A stretch of DNA of 64,000 nt, taken from the NCBI RefSeq assembly GCF_018873765.1, contig NC_057921.1:68189557-68253556 (forward strand), in the 5' to 3' direction. Below, one piece after another: positions 22,796-61,592 of this stretch. The notes beneath the pieces were generated by a model. That model had not been told where the DNA came from, ran no database searches, and saw only the letters and a program-made list of their open reading frames with translations. Position 1 is the stretch's first letter. Each line of letters begins with the position of its first letter. This stretch comes from Telopea speciosissima. Its lineage: Eukaryota; Streptophyta; Magnoliopsida; Proteales; Proteaceae. Made by a program: the position numbers and the translations under genes.

Positions 22796-25700
22796 TTAAT
22801 TTTGTACTTTTACTTCAAGTCTACTCTACGCTACGACTCTGTCTCTCTCGATTCTCAACTCCCACAGGGACCCACGGTCCCACAATTAGCAGCAATCACA
22901 GTGCATCTAATATCAATAAGCCCAAGTTGAGAGAGGAAATAGTGTCCCTTATTCCCAGTTCCATCAGCTTCAAAGACACTATTGACACGTAAGGCAGATT
23001 ATTGTTTCAAGGGCATAAGATACTAATTCAAGATGGGCATTTGTATGACTTTCAACAGCAATGTTGTTGGGAATTTAAAAACCAAATATTAGAACAGTTA
23101 ATTTAGACCGTGTTGTATAACCGAATTGAAATCGGATTTAGACCCGAAGTGGAACTGTATTGGAGAACCAAACCGAGCAGGTTTGGATTCAGTATCCAAA
23201 TCCAGAACCGACTCATTTCTCGGTTCTATTTCGGGTCATACAATCAATTCATGGAACCGAATCGATTGACACCCTTACTTCCAGTAATTGTTGTACTCAC
23301 TTACCGAGTCATGTTCCGTCGGAACATACTTAGGTTGTGTTCAATCAATTAGAGAGAGAGAGAGAGAGAGAGCAAATGAATGTGAGAGGTAATAAACTCA
23401 CAGAATAAGGATCCAAAAGATGTCTCTCTAAGAGAGAAGAAAGAGAAACTACCCGTTGTTGGCGTGCAACAAAAGACCATCGACCCGATAAAATCTCATT
23501 CAACATCGAAAACAGTATATTGCATGTCGATAAGGTTACTGATAAACCTCAATCGGAGCAAAAATGGAACTAGAATCCACATGATTTGTAAGCCTAGAAT
23601 CTCACCAAAAACCTTGACCCTGCTTTCAAATAACCCTAACCTTACAATTTTCTCATTATATAATATGAAACACTTTTTTCTCTACTCCAAAATCAACGAG
23701 GGACCAAACACTTTTCACTAATTATATACTTTACTAAAAAAAACAATAGGGGAGGTCAATGGTTTTTTTTTTTTTTTTTGGTAAAATCAATGGTTTAAAT
23801 ATTATGAGAGACAAAAATAAGGAAAATCAAAAAATTATTTTAAATTTTTTTTTTTTTTTTCAATTCATTTAATACAAATGACATGACCATAAATATACAA
23901 TTCAACTCTTTGTTTTTTTTTTCTGGTAATCAACTCAATTCAACTCAACTGAACCGGGCCTTGTCCCAACTGAATCAAAACTTAGATTCAAAACCATATG
24001 TATTAGTACTCTTATCTTTGTCATTCCTAATGATAATTGTTGGCACAGGGCAGCACTGAAGCTATAAAATGATGGTTTCGTATCTTCGGAGAGGCGTTGT
24101 TTGCGCAATTGGCTATGCGTCTATTGATTGTCTGGACTTTTGTACAATGAATGGATCCGATGCTCCCTCTCTTGTCGTAGTAGGGTGCCCTTCCCTCTGT
24201 CTTCTTCCTCAAGACTCAACTTTCATGCGCTTGCTTTACCCAAAAAGAGGAAGAAAAAAAAAAAAAAATTCATGCTCTTGAAAGGTAAGTAGTTCGATCG
24301 TTTGAACTTCCAATCTTACCTTTTAAAAAATAAAAATTAAAAAGGAGAAAGAACGTTATCTGGGTACGTTGATTCTATGCCAAGACATAGGACAAGCAAA
24401 ATTACCGTCGCACCTCCATGAAAATGTGGAATTTCCTAAGAATATGGCAGTCATTTCGCTCATCCTTATATCTTGATAGAAAGATAACATACCACACATG
24501 CCCAGATAGCATTCTCTTTACCCCCAAAGGAAATATTATATTAGTAGGAGTGTAGGACATGTAAACTTACTTTGAATCATGAGAATGCATACATAAAAGT
24601 ATTGAAGGAAAGGGATTGCGGGGGATGTCTATCAGTATCAGGGGTCGAATCAAATGGGCCTGACTAGGATTCACTTTTACAATAATTGTAAAGAAAAGGA
24701 TAGCACTACTACTACTCCTCCTCCTACTCTTGATTAGAATGACTCGTCTTGGCTCATAGATTAGACCAAAGCAAGTGGCCTTTTTTTTTTCTTTCCTTCT
24801 TTATTTCTTTTCTTTCGGAATTGGGACATGGAGATATGTATATATATATATATATCTTTATTCATCCACACACCACACAGGCAGAGCAAAACAGGAGTTG
24901 AAGCGAAGTTTCCCCCATTTTGAATAAACAAAGAATTAATAATAATAATTAAGGAAGACTATACGTACACCTCCACGCACCACGCACTGCTCCAAAAAAA
25001 TTTTCCCTTTTCTTTTGAGGATGGGTTGTAGCTTTCTGGATCACTATTCATTATTATTGATTTGTTTTTGTTTATCTACGCAGGAAAAGATTTCAAACAT
25101 GGAGAATCTCCATCTCCAAACTCTTCACTTTTTGGAAGCTTATTGGAATCAACTTTGCTTGCCTTTTTCTCATAGCCGAAATATGGTAGGACAGGGGTTT
25201 TTATTTAGTTAAGTAACATCAGGAGCTCCCACAAACCCCAAAAAAATCAGTTCCTGCGTGAGTTCTCTGTTTCTGTACTTCAATTCCTTTTCTTTCCCTT
25301 CCCTTCCGTTTGAAGAGGATATCTAATTGTAACTTGCAAATGCCATCCGACACATCTTATCATTTTGATGGGGGTCTCTACTGTGACATGCCACCATGCC
25401 GGCCTAGATTAGCACTGGAAAGATGATCATTGATAACCACCCACCCACTTTCCACTTTCCACTTTCCACTTTCCAGATTTTTCCTATTGGCCTTTTGGTT
25501 TTAAAATATAATTAATAGCGTAGAGAAGTAGATCAGATGGTTAATTGATGCAGTAAATGAAGTTTTATAGTCAGGAACAAAGGATTTTAATCTCACATAA
25601 GAAGGACTACACTATAAAAGATCAAGCTAGCTTTTGGATTCTGGAGTCAGGGGTTCCCTGCAGCCCTGCTAGTGTGTTGACCGATCAGATCATAATAAGA

Positions 25701-26093
25701 AAGTCTAGTTGGTATAGAAAGTTAGGTGGTGTTCTGGTCGAGGGAGGGAAACAAAGGCCACGCGAGGGGAGAGGGAGAGAGGGAGACTACCATTTCTTCA
25801 GGAGCCTCAAAAGAAGTTGTATCTTAATTACTTGGTACTTACAGTAACATTGTAGGTCTGAAACCAAAGACTTGAAGAGGGGAAAAGGCTAACTTTATTA
25901 GATTTAACTTTCTTGGTTTTCCTTCATTTTATATATATTTGAGACTTTAGAGTTTATAGAACAGAGAGAGCCGCTGGATCGAAGTTGAATTCTCAGGGAG
26001 ATTTGAAAAGGGCCACCGTCCCTAGTTTCCCAAATTCTCATCTCCTCCTCCCCGGCCTTCCGTTGATTTGAGTCATTCCTACTTTCTCCATCT
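22796..26093. other. long intergenic stretch
   Basis: No supported gene. At 23102-23275 there is one end of a diverged hAT-like element, GAACCGA-rich and ending GATTGACACCC. A (GA)n microsatellite lies at about 23351-23372, poly-T/A tracts at 23765-23870, a (TA)n tract at about 24838-24856 and TTTCCAC heptamers at about 25448-25478. The remainder shows nothing I recognise. Confidence 0.4.
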
Positions 26094-26102
26094 TTTAAAG
26101 TT

Positions 26103-27396
26103 GGGGTTTTTTATAAATACCCCTTAAAAATGTCCATTTTTCTAAGTGCCCCCCTATAACTTTTCTAATTGCAAACACCTCTTGATTTTCAAAACAATGT
26201 AGCATTTTGATCTAACCTGTTAATCTGGGACGTTAGAGGTTAGTTTCAAGGAATCTAATGACCAAAATGCCTTTATGATAAAAACCAACCAAAATTAAAA
26301 AATAAAGTGACCAAATTGCTCTCATCTTCCCCAAATCGTTTAGGGTTTGAAATAGAAAATCGAAAAAACCCTAAACTCTATCCAAAAAATCAATAAAAAA
26401 AAACTCACCTGCAAAAGAAGTTGAATCCATCTTGCTCAGATGTGCTTGAATCGAACCCTCCAATTTAATGTTTGCCACACTCACCAATCTCAAAACCTTA
26501 GATCTATCAAAAAAAAACCAATAATATAAGTTTTACTTTCATGTAACTCACTATTGTAATCGTCAAAGCTGAAAAGATGCATCAAACCAACTCACGGTTG
26601 ATCTCACTACTATAGTCACCAAACAAATTATTAATTCTTCATGGATAAGCTTAGTGGGAACTCAAGAGCATGGGCTTAATGGGAACAATCGATGTCGACA
26701 CCCTTGCGGGTTTGGGGTTCTTAAGATGGATAAGCTTCACCAACAATAACTTCGATTGTTCCATACCTAGCATATGGAAGCTTGGTGCATTGAAATCGGT
26801 TCATCTGTCGAAAAATCATTTTCTTTGGTGAGATTCCAGATAATGCATATACAAAGATGGGATCTTTGAAGTTTCTGAATTTGGCAGAGAATGAATTTAC
26901 GGGTAAGATTCCGTCGTCGCTAGCTTGCTCAGTTACCTCGGCTTTTGGAGTTAAGGCTCGATGGGAATCAGTTTGAAGGAAATATTTTAGATTTCCAACA
27001 AAAGGATTTGAGATTGGTAAGTGTGGCAAACAATAAATTGGAGGGTCCGATTCCAACACAACTGATCAAAATGGATTCAGCTTCTTGTGCAGGTGAGTTT
27101 TCCTTATTGGTTTTTTGGATAGAGTTTAGGGTTTTTTTGATTTTCAGTTTCAAACCTAAACAAATGATTAGAGGAAGATGAGGGCAATTTGATCATTTTA
27201 TTTTTAAATTTTGATTGGATTTTATTATAAGGGCATTTTGATCATTAGATTTCCTACAACTAACCTCTAACGTCCCATATTAACATATTAGACCAAAGTG
27301 CTATACTGTTTAAAAAATAGAACGAGTTTACAATTAAAAAAGTTATAAGGGGCATTTAGACAAATGGACATTTTAGGTGGGCATTTGTAAAAATCC
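26103..27396. mobile_element. Mutator-type (Pack-MULE-like) element with long inverted arms and captured receptor-kinase fragment
   Basis: 1294 bp bounded by a perfect 9-bp direct repeat TTTAAAGTT (26094-26102 and 27397-27405), the duplication size of Mutator elements. The two ends are inverted copies of each other for about 397 bp (26103-26500 against 27000-27396). The outermost bases are GGGGTTTTTTATAAATACCC and, as complement, GGATTTTTACAAATGCCC. Inside, on the plus strand, lies a leucine-rich-repeat piece resembling pollen receptor-like kinases. There is no transposase, so the element is non-autonomous. Confidence 0.88.
26672..27094 (+). pseudogene. captured fragment of a PRK-type receptor-like kinase gene (LRR region)
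   Basis: Translating across frames gives MGTIDVDTLAGLGFL, then ISFTNNNFD, IPSIWKLGALKSVHLSKNHF, EIPDNAYTKMGSLKFLNLAE, EFTGKIPSSLAC, ELRLDGNQFEGNI, DFQQKDLRLVSVANNKLEGP and IPTQLIKMDSASCAG. This is the LRR order of plant pollen receptor-like kinases (PRK family), up to an exon end followed by GTGAG. The fragment has frameshifts and no kinase domain. Its last part (27000-27094) and the following intron-like sequence are repeated inverted in the left arm (26330-26500), so part of the captured gene lies in both arms of the host element. Confidence 0.8.
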
Positions 27397-27405
27397 TTTA
27401 AAGTT

Positions 27406-29195
27406 TAAACCCCGCCATCCTTTGGTGGTCATTGTCATTCACGTACGTTGCGGAAAAGATTTAAGACTTTATTTCAAGATCAGTTTCTCATATAGAGAGA
27501 GAGAGAGAGAGGGTGTTGTGGGTTTGTCGCAGATTCTGGATGGTGGAGAGTGGGGCCGTGTGCATATTAGAGAGACTAAAAACCCAACTCGTATGGCGCG
27601 CCAGGGCCACATGATAGAAAGTCATCCGATCCCTGGGTGGACTGGTGACCAAGTTGTCCAGTGGAGGAGTAGGGTCTCTCAGGGCATGGTCGGAAGTCGG
27701 GTTCCCTAATCCCTATACTCATATATATATCACTCACTATATGGGTCACCAGATCAAAGCATTTACATGGTGGAACCCACAGTCCCCTAGGTCACCACCG
27801 ATGTGAATTATGAATTGTGATAAGACCCAGGTACCGGTGGCTCCACAGTGCTTTGAGCCTTGAAGTTTGAAACAAATTGAACCCCACAGCCACAGGAACT
27901 TGCATGCATCACTGAGTTTTCCTTAATGGCTAAGACACTATGATTTTGAGAAAAGGAGGCGACAAGTGCATAGCCGTACTTGCAATCAATCATTCTTACC
28001 CTGTGCTTTGCTTTCTTAACAATGAACTCTCTTGAATCCATCTTCTAAAAATATATGGCCCACCGTCTTATGGGTCAATTCGGCTCTCCTCCAGCTGTGG
28101 CAGTAATTGGAGGATCAGCTTAGCCAAAAGAGTGGTGTTTGGATCATTTCACATGTGGGGTTTCCTGTTTTGACTGGGTTGGATCTTCCAGCTCCCTTCA
28201 CCTCTTGAGGAAAATCAGATCCATTATGGGCTATGGACTTTTCCCCCTTGAGTTAGGGTAAAAGTCGTTCGGAGGTAGGTTAAAAGTTAAAACCTAAGTT
28301 ACATTTCCCAGTGGCATCGATTTCCATTAGAACTATTGGTTTTTTAGTAGAAATTTCCTTTAAAACTGATTCATTATATAGAATATAGGGAGAAAGTTCT
28401 CTCTCCGGGAGTGTGGCCATAGAATACTACTTCCCATATTATCCGTGGGGTTCAACAACTCTTTGCTCAAAGCAGTTAATCCAAGGCTTGGTAGATCCAA
28501 CCTAAGGAAATGGGGTTCAAATCCCCTCCAAATTCATCTATACTATCTTCTCCATAAGTGTCCTCCGGCCCCCTTATCATGACATTAAAGTGTGTTAACT
28601 ACAGCAGTGTGTGTTTTTTTCCTTAACCAAACCTCCTTCCTTCTTCTAGAAAAACATTTTATTCATTGTCAACATGTAAAACCCATGGTTTATAGAAAGG
28701 AATTGGGCCAGATTGTAGTAGATGTCATTGACAAAACCCCTACTCCATAATGCTATTAAATTCCCTTGGAACAAACTGAAAAACACAAGAAACAAAAGAA
28801 AACAAAAGATAAAAGATAAGAACATGATATCCTCCAAAATGAATCTAATCTAGCTATAAAACTAACATTGCAACCATTGTAACCTGATTTTTTCACTTTT
28901 GGCTGGGTAGACCCCACAACAGAAACCGACGAAACTATTTAAGGATAACCATTTCCTCCGTGAGAGATATAAGACAGATCCTCCCTCAGTCCGTCGTGTA
29001 TTAATGTGCATTAGAAATTTATATCAGAAGAAGAAGATTCATCACTAATGTTTTAGCTAGCAGTAGGTATCCATGGGAAGAAAAAAGAAAGATCAGAAGA
29101 GGGATTAGAATTAAGGGAGATAGCAGAAGAAACTAAGGAAGCCCAAATGGGGATTTGGAGATCCGAAAAGAAAGAGAAAGCAATTTGTAAATTAC
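27406..29195. other. intergenic region
   Basis: No supported gene. A minus-strand frame at 27808-28041 (77 residues, MDSREFIVKKAKHRV...) is open but unrecognised. A piece at about 28386-28425 (GGGAGTGTGGCC) looks like one end of the MITE family found whole at 40805-40974. Confidence 0.35.
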
Positions 29196-29210
29196 ATGTT
29201 TGAAGAGGCC

Positions 29211-29456
29211 GATATGTATCAATGTAAGGAATATAAGCATGTGTGGAGGAAGGTGAATCAACCAGCAGATTACATTGTTTCTTTACCTACAGGTGATGTG
29301 GAGATTATTCTCCAACCAGTTAAATTTTCGGAGGATATGTATCAATGTAAGGAGTATAAGTATGTGTGGAAGAAGGTGAATCAACCAGCAGATTACATTG
29401 TCTCCTTACCTATCGGTGATGTGAAGATTATTCTCCAATCAGTTAAATTTTCGGAG
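29211..29456 (+). repeat. 123-bp in-frame tandem duplication in a LINE-like coding remnant
   Basis: Two adjacent 123-bp units (29211-29333, 29334-29456) at roughly 93-95% identity. The frame 29196-29468 stays open through both, giving two 41-residue units with CKEYKHVWRKVNQPADYIVS. The NQPADYI motif resembles the last helix of the RNase H domain of plant LINEs, so the source is probably a LINE tail. That identification is tentative. Confidence 0.75.
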
Positions 29457-29468
29457 GAACTTTATTAA

Positions 29469-29787
29469 TTGATTAAGGGGATGCTGATTTCTGTATCTAC
29501 TATTGATTGTAACTTCTTTATTTTTGACACTTTGATTGATATAGAACTGGTCCCATTTTAGTTCGGACCTCCCATTTTCCTTTTTAAACATATTTTAAAG
29601 AGGTTCTAGTTTGTATATTTATTTTTTTCTTTTTAATTTTTAATATAATTTACCAATCGAAAAACAAAAAAAAAATTACTTATCCCAAAAAAAACACCAG
29701 AAGATCCAGCTAAAAGAAAAGGAAGAGAAGATCAGAGCTTACATTAGATTGCATTACAAAAAAAATTAAGAAAATGATCAAAAGATG
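29469..29787. other. 3' flank of the second NHL gene
   Basis: AT-rich. Holds the probable 3' UTR of the minus-strand gene that ends at 29788. Confidence 0.35.
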
Positions 29788-31114: not shown

Positions 31115-31311
31115 GGTATTCAGATGCAGATCGTCTATGGCGCAGCTGGCCGTCCTGCCTGTGTTGCATAGATATAGGGTCGGGCGTAAAGACCGTTTTA
31201 CTCTCATTCGGGCAAGACGTTTGGGTAAGGGTATGGCGGTCTTTGCACGTGACCCTGTGTCTATGCAGCACAGGCAGGATGGACAGCTAAGCCGTAGACG
31301 ATCCAAATTCC
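31115..31311. mobile_element. foldback MITE, about 197 bp
   Basis: Two inverted arms of about 66 bp, 31128-31193 and 31229-31294, pair at roughly 85% (for example CTGCCTGTGTTGCATAGA against TCTATGCAGCACAGGCAG). The outer ends are GGTATT... and the complement GGAATT.... Flanks AGATCTCA and AGATACTCA could be a decayed 8- or 9-bp target duplication. The family is uncertain; Mutator-type is possible. Confidence 0.7.
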
Positions 31312-39642: not shown

Positions 39643-40676
39643 CAAGGTTCTAAAACTCAGTTATCAAGTAGGGTTTGATCGTTCAGAAAATGAGTTTATT
39701 TAAATCCGATCATATCTCGATTGAAACTTGGAATTTTCTCTAAGTGAACTTGACCCTTGGTTTCAAGGCTCAGAAGTTGTTTTTTTGCTCTGATTCTTGT
39801 TGTTCTGCTTATTTTTTATATTTTAAATCCAATCCATGCATTAGTTTCACATAGAGAACACTAAAAATACTACATGTGATTTTGATCCTAGTTTGATACT
39901 ATATATTGTTCTTAGACATGATATCAAATAAGGTTTGATCGAACATAACTCTTTCAATATAAATGAGATATAAGAAATTTTGGATTTGTTAGAAAACTTT
40001 GTTTTGATAGCTTTTCAATAAGTCTAAGATTGTTTATATCTGATTTATATTGAAGGAATTACATATCGATCAAACTTAATTTGGTGTGCACGAATACTGT
40101 CAAAATCGTTCTGAATGAAAATATTTTTTTGGACATCAAAACAAATGAATATTTTACTGTACTTTTGGTTTTTAGCAATGTTTTATCATATTAAGATTTA
40201 TGGAAGTTTTAGATTTGAGAAAAACCCCAGCATTAGAAGTTGAAAATTACACCTACAGTCGAAAATCCAGTTTTTGTTCTTAAACTGGATGATTGACTTT
40301 TTTTTCTTTTGGAATTTGATTTTTTTAACTATTTTTATTAGATTCAAATAGGGGATATTTGCTAATTTATGGATAATATCTTAAATAAATGAAATACATT
40401 TACTTAAATGATATTAGACATAACTAAGTATCTGTCCTGGGTTCTGGCAGTTTCTGGCATAAATACCTATCTGTCCTACTTTCGAACCAAGTTTTCCCTA
40501 GTTTCGATGGGCATATGTGTCGAAAACACCAAAATATGGTCGAAACCAATCGAAACCATCGAAACCCGGTCGAATCCAGGGATTTTATAAAATCCCCCTT
40601 CAACTCGTCTCAGAAACCTACGAAACCGAGTTAACTCAGTGGTTTCGACAGGTTTCGATCGAGTTTTTGTTCCATG
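39643..40676. mobile_element. non-autonomous hAT transposon, 1034 bp
   Basis: Flanked by a perfect 8-bp duplication ATTTAGAG (39635-39642, 40677-40684). The ends are inverted: CAAGGTTCTAAAACTCAG and, as complement, CATGGAACAAAAACTCG. The last 250 bp are packed with GAAACC/GGTTTCG motifs, the likely transposase-binding subterminal region. No transposase is present. The terminal pattern CAAGG...CTC(A)G is shared with the element at 6089-6903, so the two belong to related hAT families. Confidence 0.9.
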
Positions 40677-40804: not shown

Positions 40805-40974
40805 AGAGAAGCAGTTTTCTGTACGAGAATGTGGCCTACTCCAGCACTCCCATGTGTCTATCTCTCTCCTTTTTAAAACAAAGGGGTAGAGGTGTCTTTT
40901 CACATGGGGAAGAGAGAGATAGACTCATAGGAGTGCTGGCGTAGGCCACACTCCCAGATAGAGATATTTTTCCC
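40805..40974. mobile_element. hAT-type MITE, 170 bp
   Basis: Nearly the whole element is an inverted repeat: GTGGCCTACTCCAGCACTCC pairs with GGAGTGCTGGCGTAGGCCAC, then ATAGACACATGG/... continues inward. Perfect 8-bp flanking repeat TAATTATA (40797-40804, 40975-40982). Single-ended relatives occur at about 28386 and 55321. Confidence 0.88.
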
Positions 40975-41327: not shown

Positions 41328-43017
<1,690 letters not shown>

Positions 43018-59984: not shown

Positions 59985-61592
59985 TGATAATACTTCCATC
60001 CTACTTCCACGACTTCTAAGCGCACCACCTGTTTTTTTGATCATCCAATGGCCTGTATTGAATTCAAAATTTTTTGAAAATCTGATAAGACCTGTTTGAA
60101 TCACCTTAAACCCCAAAACAAACCTATCCGACAGGTTCAAACACATCTTTAACCCAATCTCTACCCTAATCTAACCCATTCTCTCTCCTCTATCACTCTT
60201 CCCCATCCCTCCCTACCTTGGTTTCTCTTTCTTTCTTCTTCTCTGTAGAACACGTCAAACCTGCAACTCCGAAAATGCTCTTCGTCTTCAACCTTGGGAA
60301 CCCTCTTGGTGGAAAACTCATAATTAATTTCAAGAGAAGAAATCATTTGATTTTATCTCCTACGGATTCAAAGCTTCAGGATAAGGCTTCTGACCCATAG
60401 CCCTATGGATTCCAGCAAGAAATCAATTGATTCAATAGTTTGAAGACTAATAGAACTTTTCTGAAACATGAACCAGCGGGAGTTGCAGGTTCAGATATGG
60501 ATCCAGATGGATATCTCACAACAGGGATGAAACTAAGGGAAGGAAACCTAAGGTTCAAATCACCCTAGGATGTGGATCTTATTCCCAAAATCGGAGGGAG
60601 AAAGAATAAGATGCGAGGGAGAACAGCCACCAAATTGAGAGTGCAAGTACCACCAGACCCACCATCATTTTTCAAGGTTCACATTCTATGAGATTATCTG
60701 TGATTTTGTCTAATGTCATCTCCTTCTCATAGTATTTGATATACAAGCTATGTATAGAAGTATAAAGGAGAGATATTCAACTACTCTAAAATCAATTAAA
60801 AAATTGGAAAAGGAAAACCAATATAAAGAATACAAATCTCCCTCTTCGTCTCCCTCTATCAAAACATAAATCCAGAACATGAGACAAATTCTTTCTAGTT
60901 TCTGCTCCTCTCAAATTTTTTCTTTTATCTTTTTAAACATTCTCATTTTTTGGTATTTTTTACAACTCTGAGCGGTTACTGACTCAACCATGGTTTCTGT
61001 GGCTTTTAACTTAGATTTAAAACAATTTTGGTAATTGGTCCTCGTTTGTTTGTTTTGTGTCTTTCAACTCTATCTTTGCCGTTGGAGTAGAACACCACCA
61101 TCACACCTGCAACTCCGGGTGGAATGCCAAATGGATTTTTCTTTATCTAAGCCATCAGCTGACATCTAACCAAACACCTTATGCCCATCCTAAAACCCGA
61201 CGGTGCTGTTTTGAGTTTCTGGAAGAAAAGAAGAAGAGAGTAGCGGAGCGAAGCAGATGGCGTTAGATCGCCATGGCCATGAACGATTGCAATGAGGCTC
61301 TGAGTTTTTCGGAGGAAGAGGAGATCTTCATTCGATGGAGTTCCTCTGAGTTTTTCGGAAGAAGAAGAGGATAAATTTTGATTTGAGGGAAGATGGGTTT
61401 GGGGTTTGGTTTGAGTGAGTTTGAACCGGTTGGATTGGGTTGTTTAGGGGTTTAAGGTTTGGTTCAAAGGTCTCATCAGGTTTTGAAAAGCATTTTGAAT
61501 TTTTTTGAATTGTTTCACTTCCAGACGTTGGATGGCTGTCAGGCCACGTGGCGCGATGTTAAGTCTTGGAAGTAAAATGGAAGTACTATCGA
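59985..61592. mobile_element. Mutator-like element with long inverted ends, non-autonomous
   Basis: The left arm (about 59985-60215) and the right arm (about 61380-61592) are inverted copies: ATACTTCCATCCTACTTCC against the complement GTACTTCCATTTTACTTCC. Both arms then share CATCCAA, AATTCAAAA, TGAAAA/TCAAAA, ATGAGACCT-like and CCTTAAACCCC words and ACAGGTTCAAAC/CCGGTTCAAAC in the same order. Long TIRs (about 200 bp) suggest Mutator. I could not settle the 9-bp flanking repeat, so the limits are approximate. The interior has no recognised coding sequence. Confidence 0.6.

Follow-up and report, generated by a model that had tools for sequence, protein, structure and literature searches.

A Pack-MULE of Telopea speciosissima carrying the end of a captured PRK-type exon in both inverted arms, probably doubled by a template switch

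A short transposon-like element in the genome of Telopea speciosissima contains a piece of a receptor-kinase gene, and the end of this piece is found in both of its long inverted arms, in opposite orientation. This raises the question of how a captured exon became part of the arms, and whether the hairpin that the arms could form silences the gene of origin. The element occupies 1294 bp (26103-27396) of the window, i.e., the whole stretch of DNA analyzed (64,000 nucleotides, located on C6). It is abutted by the target site duplication (TSD) TTTAAAGTT, the left copy of which (26094-26102) is identical to the right one (27397-27405) at 9/9 positions; the probability of two random 9-mers of the window being identical by chance is 5.8e-5. 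The left arm (26103-26499, plus strand) and the right arm (27002-27396, minus strand) could be aligned over 395 bp (26105-26499 against 27396-27002) with 83.7% identity over 399 columns (E 5.6e-117). Their local alignment score was 475, compared with a maximum of 84 among 475 control stretches of the window (500 had been drawn, of which 25 were dropped for being too close to the element). The perfect 9-bp flanking repeats and the inverted arms of about 397 bp described in the initial annotation were, thus, confirmed. Its estimate of 85-90% similarity between the arms was slightly high for the arms overall but agrees with the exon part, for which realignment under different gap costs gave 80/91 identical positions (outer part, 26105-26299, 161/191; middle part, 96/107). 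The Kimura distance between the arms was 0.149, and the duplication is indeed not recent. That the inner portion of the arms had been copied more recently than the outer one was considered and dismissed, as the two did not differ (88.9% versus 84.3%, p 0.23).

No second copy of the element was found within the window, the best match outside the element having an E value of 0.069. Other repeats are present there. Inverted repeats of ∼85 bp that are 82% alike, separated by 1.4 kb, and accompanied by 7-bp direct repeats close to their ends (60061-61501) possibly belong to another DNA transposon. Three near-palindromic, MITE-like sequences of 127-175 bp (31129-31303, 39925-40083, and 40827-40953) lack a clear target duplication. 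A direct duplication of 136 bp (90%) at 29211-29469 falls mostly inside a 114-aa open frame (29124-29465) that has no convincing Pfam match. Three homopolymer runs of C (78, 226, and 55 bases) at 41984-42382, the last one preceded by an A16 run, are possibly a sequencing or assembly artefact.

Within the insert of the element, an LRR protein is readable, split over three frames. The captured fragment (26659-27098, plus strand) stems from a PRK-type gene, of which it comprises 429 bp of exon 1 and six bases of the intron; it carries two frameshifting insertions in this copy, ends with the splice donor GTGAGT, and directly adjoins the right terminal inverted repeat (TIR; 27099-27396). When the genome (822.9 Mb in 1287 contigs) was searched, query positions 557-996 matched C4:46683712-46684146 at 93%, the next match being a paralogue on C5 at 77%; the expected PRK gene closer to the fragment than background is, therefore, present in the same genome. 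Of the captured piece, 406/435 compared bases are identical to the C4 gene in the window element (hereafter copy A) and 401/434 in a second full-length copy (copy B; see below). The gene lies on the minus strand of C4, and a gene model was built from its open frames in this analysis. Exon 1 is open through the LRRs and ends with ...MDSASFAG followed by GTGAGT; downstream there is a stretch with GNKGLCGAPLEAC... and the N-terminal part of the kinase, and then another kinase stretch. The last kinase stretch stops after ...EEVRERDN, and the C5 paralogue is ∼30 residues longer (loci L027/L010).

The class of the parent was judged from its LRR domain against PDB sequences only, and within these, the domain was closest to PRKs. 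The parent ectodomain (202 residues) matched 49 PDB sequences at a cut-off of 1e-25, among which only PRK3 (query 4-200) and PRK6 (query 1-198) contained a single stretch passing 1e-25 alone, which is why the parent is called PRK-type. The whole captured piece, likewise, matched Pollen receptor-like kinase 3 as one stretch (query 1-129, 76.9 bits), whereas the best single stretches of the top-ranked PDB chains shown (GSO1 and two FLS2 entries) scored ∼38 bits each; such long receptors rank above PRK3 by total score because their many repeats add up. A PRK query of 34 residues yielded no match at E 0.1. The LRR piece of a PRK-type kinase proposed initially was, thus, verified, and its likely parent, judging from sequence similarity, is the C4 gene with the LRR exon 1, which would code for a PRK-type receptor kinase.

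As criteria for a Pack-MULE, a TSD of 9-11 bp, long TIRs (100-500 bp), lack of a transposase, and presence of a host-gene fragment were used. Here, the TSD TTTAAAGTT (9/9) is accompanied by TIRs shared with a family (see below), by a host-gene fragment (406/435), and by no transposase match. Stop-to-stop ORFs of 38 aa or more number 12 in the element; eight of these were scanned (all but four of 44-49 aa), with LRRs recognized in three and nothing in five; the element is, accordingly, non-autonomous, and its initial classification as a Pack-MULE stands.

The initial annotation also held that both arms contain the exon end followed by intron-like sequence. The first part was correct: 97 bp of the parent gene, i.e., 91 bp of the exon end plus the donor GTGAGT, are present at 27002-27098 in the right arm and, inverted, at 26403-26499 in the left arm (minus strand; 90/97 identical to the parent gene). 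The second part was not, because the intron contributes GTGAGT alone (27093-27098). If the arms held the captured exon plus its following intron, the true splice donor that follows the exon in both element and parent would be accounted for. However, the parent intron differs directly after these six bases (the parent reads GTGAGTAATTTACC, the right arm of copy A GTGAGTTTTCC, and copy B GTGAGCTTTCC), which rules out intron beyond this point. Furthermore, ordinary MULEs without the exon have TIRs matching most of the following sequence of the element, to within about ten bases of the junction, and their match to the extended arm ends by query position 292. The supposed intron beyond the six bases is, therefore, TIR, and what the arms have in addition to ordinary TIRs is PRK exon with six bases of intron; that the arms contain the exon together with the intron following it is practically negligible as a possibility.

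The genome contains further family members both with and without the PRK piece. The search listed 107 matches, with 40 out of 1586 first-look candidates scored, and copy numbers are, therefore, lower bounds. Besides copy A, the exon-bearing arm was found in at least three places. Copy B is full-length (C3:27123164-27124425) and identical to copy A at 1126/1272 positions (88.5%). Copy C (C3:12157034-12157846; L012:535-1347) is a near-pure palindrome of 813 bp, in which the loop has been lost and the arms nearly abut, and copy D (C1:4414842-4415322) is truncated to the left arm and part of the spacer. The TSDs of copies B, C, and D are degraded or poor, T-rich, or absent. At least 46 places contain the TIR only, reaching query position 292 at the latest, and represent ordinary members of the family; a TIR of up to ∼290 bp is common to many elements. 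Of 13 ordinary elements, five (L015, L017, L019, L022, and L023) are abutted by perfect 9-bp TSDs; those of the others are of 8 or 10 bp, have one mismatch, are of low complexity, or are lacking. No MULE transposase belonging to this TIR family was detected in the analysis. L016 (5.4 kb) was considered as the autonomous partner and discarded, since among five of its ORFs that were scanned, four contained Copia-type domains and no transposase was recognized. L016:273-5702 is an ordinary MULE of the family with RVT_2, Pol_BBD, and SH3 inside, which was read as a nested retrotransposon.

The sequence at the inner border of the left arm is informative as to how the exon end was doubled. All seven extended arms found (two each in copies A, B, and C, and one in D) have the identical junction between TIR and exon, and in all four copies, a piece of the inner tail of a TIR lies just inside the left arm at the end of the exon copy. 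This residual left tail is of the GGATAGATCTAGGG type, clear in copy B, eroded in copy A (26492-26525, plus strand), and slightly changed in copies C and D. The 24 bases of it in copy B recur in the ordinary element L020 with one mismatch; a left-type tail within two mismatches was found in L020 alone among the 13 ordinary loci, and 20 shuffles of 20 kb never gave fewer than five mismatches. The tail in the outer left TIR (26103-26402, plus strand) is of the right-arm type, GGATAGAGTTTAGGG, which is, thus, present in both arms; within two mismatches, it is also found in two ordinary elements, L016 and L024, the former of which combines it with a left-type-like tail at the opposite end. Together with the TIR-only places stopping by query position 292, the presence of the right-type tail in both arms is taken to mean that the outer left TIR was copied from the right one. 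The loop spacer (26526-26658, plus strand) is common to copy B and partly to copy D; the idea that it continues the exon, either inverted or directly, was rejected, as the alignment scores were no different from shuffle scores.

Read outward, the junction between exon copy and residual tail is GATCTAGGGTTTT followed by GA in copies B, C, and D and GATCTAAGGTTTT followed by GA in copy A. Its two partners, likewise read outward, are GATCTAGGGTTTTTTTGATTTTC in the ordinary element L020 and AGAAGGATTT followed by GAGATTGG in the parent exon, which have AGG[G/A]TTT in common. In copy A, this microhomology of 6/7 bases lies at 26492-26498 (minus strand). A tree of the TIR parts of the seven extended arms and of a chosen subset of ordinary TIRs (14 ends, with 10 of the 13 ordinary elements represented) separated the two sets (UFBoot 93); nodes among the extended arms were unstable (UFBoot 33-83 for the TIR part and 15-53 for whole arms). 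The inner region of the TIR contains the 9-mers TTAGGGTTT/AAACCCTAA at 26340, 26366, and 27126, which we take to be telo-box-like; seven are present in the window, compared with 0.76 expected from base composition. The switch junction of the family is located in such a telo-box-like motif.

The fact that a residual left TIR tail is joined to the exon at AGG[G/A]TTT points to a template switch, which is the simplest reading of tail and junction. A non-autonomous Mutator-like element would have acquired the piece of PRK-type exon 1 beside its right TIR. Concurrently or shortly thereafter, synthesis proceeding outward through the left TIR would have switched template at AGG[G/A]TTT and landed on the exon adjoining the right TIR, whereupon the exon end and the right TIR would have been copied out to the terminus. 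The outer left TIR would thereby have been replaced, resulting in arms of 395 bp, each including 97 bp of the captured gene. Subsequently, the chimera would have reached at least four places, and at one of them the loop may have been lost, leaving the near-pure palindrome of 813 bp; the copies now apparently drift neutrally. We consider this course of exon capture, template switch, spread, and apparently neutral drift probable. The switch may have had a fold-back geometry, but the template may also have been another copy, and the order of capture, arm doubling, and spread is likewise what we infer. Such a switch would fit the stem-loop and gap-conversion models mentioned in PMC4858842, as well as the remark in section 15 of PMC3310237 that extended TIRs may incorporate acquired sequence.

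Recombination between two copies of a Pack-MULE in opposite orientation, each bearing the exon on one side only, could have produced the arms as well. The family is numerous and dispersed, and the resulting chimera would look alike. However, a microhomology of 6/7 bases is more in line with template switching or end joining than with homologous exchange, and no complete one-sided exon copy was present among the 107 matches listed, so that we regard recombination as unlikely and template switching as the preferred act. With respect to timing, 434 columns comprising parent and paralogue contained four derived changes common to copies A and B, seven derived in the parent, three unresolved, 15 in copy A only, and 18 in copy B only. 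In 92 arm columns, no substitution relative to the parent was common to all seven arms, one was common to six, and one, at the junction, to five. From these counts of shared and private substitutions, capture, arm doubling, and spread seem to have occurred close together and well before the present.

Whether the hairpin now acts as a silencing locus was judged from its predicted folding and from the pattern of substitutions. The predicted fold of copy A (−567 kcal/mol with 81 pairs in the exon arm, and −583 kcal/mol for the other strand) was far stronger than that of 12 dinucleotide shuffles each (about −283 kcal/mol), as was that of the palindromic copy C, which forms a cleaner hairpin (−453 and −469 kcal/mol; 20 shuffles each, −166 and −176). 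In each arm of copy A, 65/77 exon 21-mers differ from the parent at no more than two positions (exact matches, 3/77 in the left and 15/77 in the right arm), which makes a silencing hairpin possible, and captured sequences in transposable elements of maize, including Pack-MULEs, are referred to as siRNA reservoirs against donor genes in a passage of a review (PMC13317346). A read-through hairpin of the window element or of the palindrome on C3 might, thus, be diced into siRNAs that lower the expression of, or methylate, the parent PRK-type gene. However, the longest perfect run between the exon arms is 13 bp, and 0/71 windows of 21 nt are perfect. The exon arm resembles the parent as closely as the loop does (91/97 versus 315/338), differences in the exon arm affect all three codon positions (3, 5, and 3), similarity between the arms is not higher in the exon part than elsewhere (Fisher p 0.86), and Rfam gave no match in 25000-28500 up to E 0.1. 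The changes private to copy A or B in the captured piece are also spread over the codon positions (11, 9, and 14), and the two frameshifting insertions of copy A and the deletion and stop of copy B are each private. Constraint on fragment, arms, or target match was, thus, not visible by codon position, by exon arm versus loop, or by exon part versus the rest of the arms. A G-U strand bias of the arm changes, considered as a sign of hairpin function, was rejected (14 versus 21, p 0.31). Drift without constraint and the lack of a perfect run longer than 13 bp provide no positive evidence for a present silencing function; silencing by the element hairpin would be possible but is unsupported, and we consider an active silencing locus rather improbable. 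Copy C, as a natural foldback, would be the best candidate for a small-RNA locus. A more far-reaching proposal, in which the inner TAGGGTTT motif of the TIR is a recurrent switch point turning captured exons into inverted repeats and the palindrome on C3 is a small-RNA locus against the PRK-type parent, we regard as very improbable.

Like the Pack-MULEs of rice, maize, tomato, and Arabidopsis, the element has MULE-type TIRs, a 9-bp TSD, a piece of a host gene, and no transposase match; in contrast to them, its captured exon is part of both arms and a chimeric left TIR is readable. MULEs with acquired sequence inside extended TIRs are mentioned in one sentence in section 15 of Ferguson and Jiang 2012 (PMC3310237), with refs 13 and 31 of that article as sources, and they share captured sequence within the inverted repeats with the element. 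For the present element, parent gene, sibling copies, and switch junction were identified. With the MULEs with tandem or multiple TIRs described in the same article, it shares a second TIR piece inside one end, but this tail is ∼30 bp long and present on one side, whereas at least 100 bp are asked for in that article. Mu killer of maize, which contains a piece of transposase and reportedly silences MuDR (PMC3440606), is likewise an inverted duplication that could give hairpin RNA; the present element carries a PRK-type exon instead, and of the Mu-killer-like features, the foldable long inverted repeat is present while constraint on arms or target match is not visible. A description of element 26103-27396 was not found among the titles and abstract openings covered.

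The acquisition of genes by MULEs and the entry of acquired sequence into their TIRs are described as not understood or in terms of theoretical models in passages of PMC3310237 and PMC4858842. The kind of element is already known; here, the apparent copying slip is readable at base level. Parent, ordinary members, siblings, and both junctions are available together, and the residual left tail records the template side. The element would exemplify one route by which a transposon forms and spreads a gene-derived inverted repeat, and such a repeat may be raw material for siRNA or miRNA loci.
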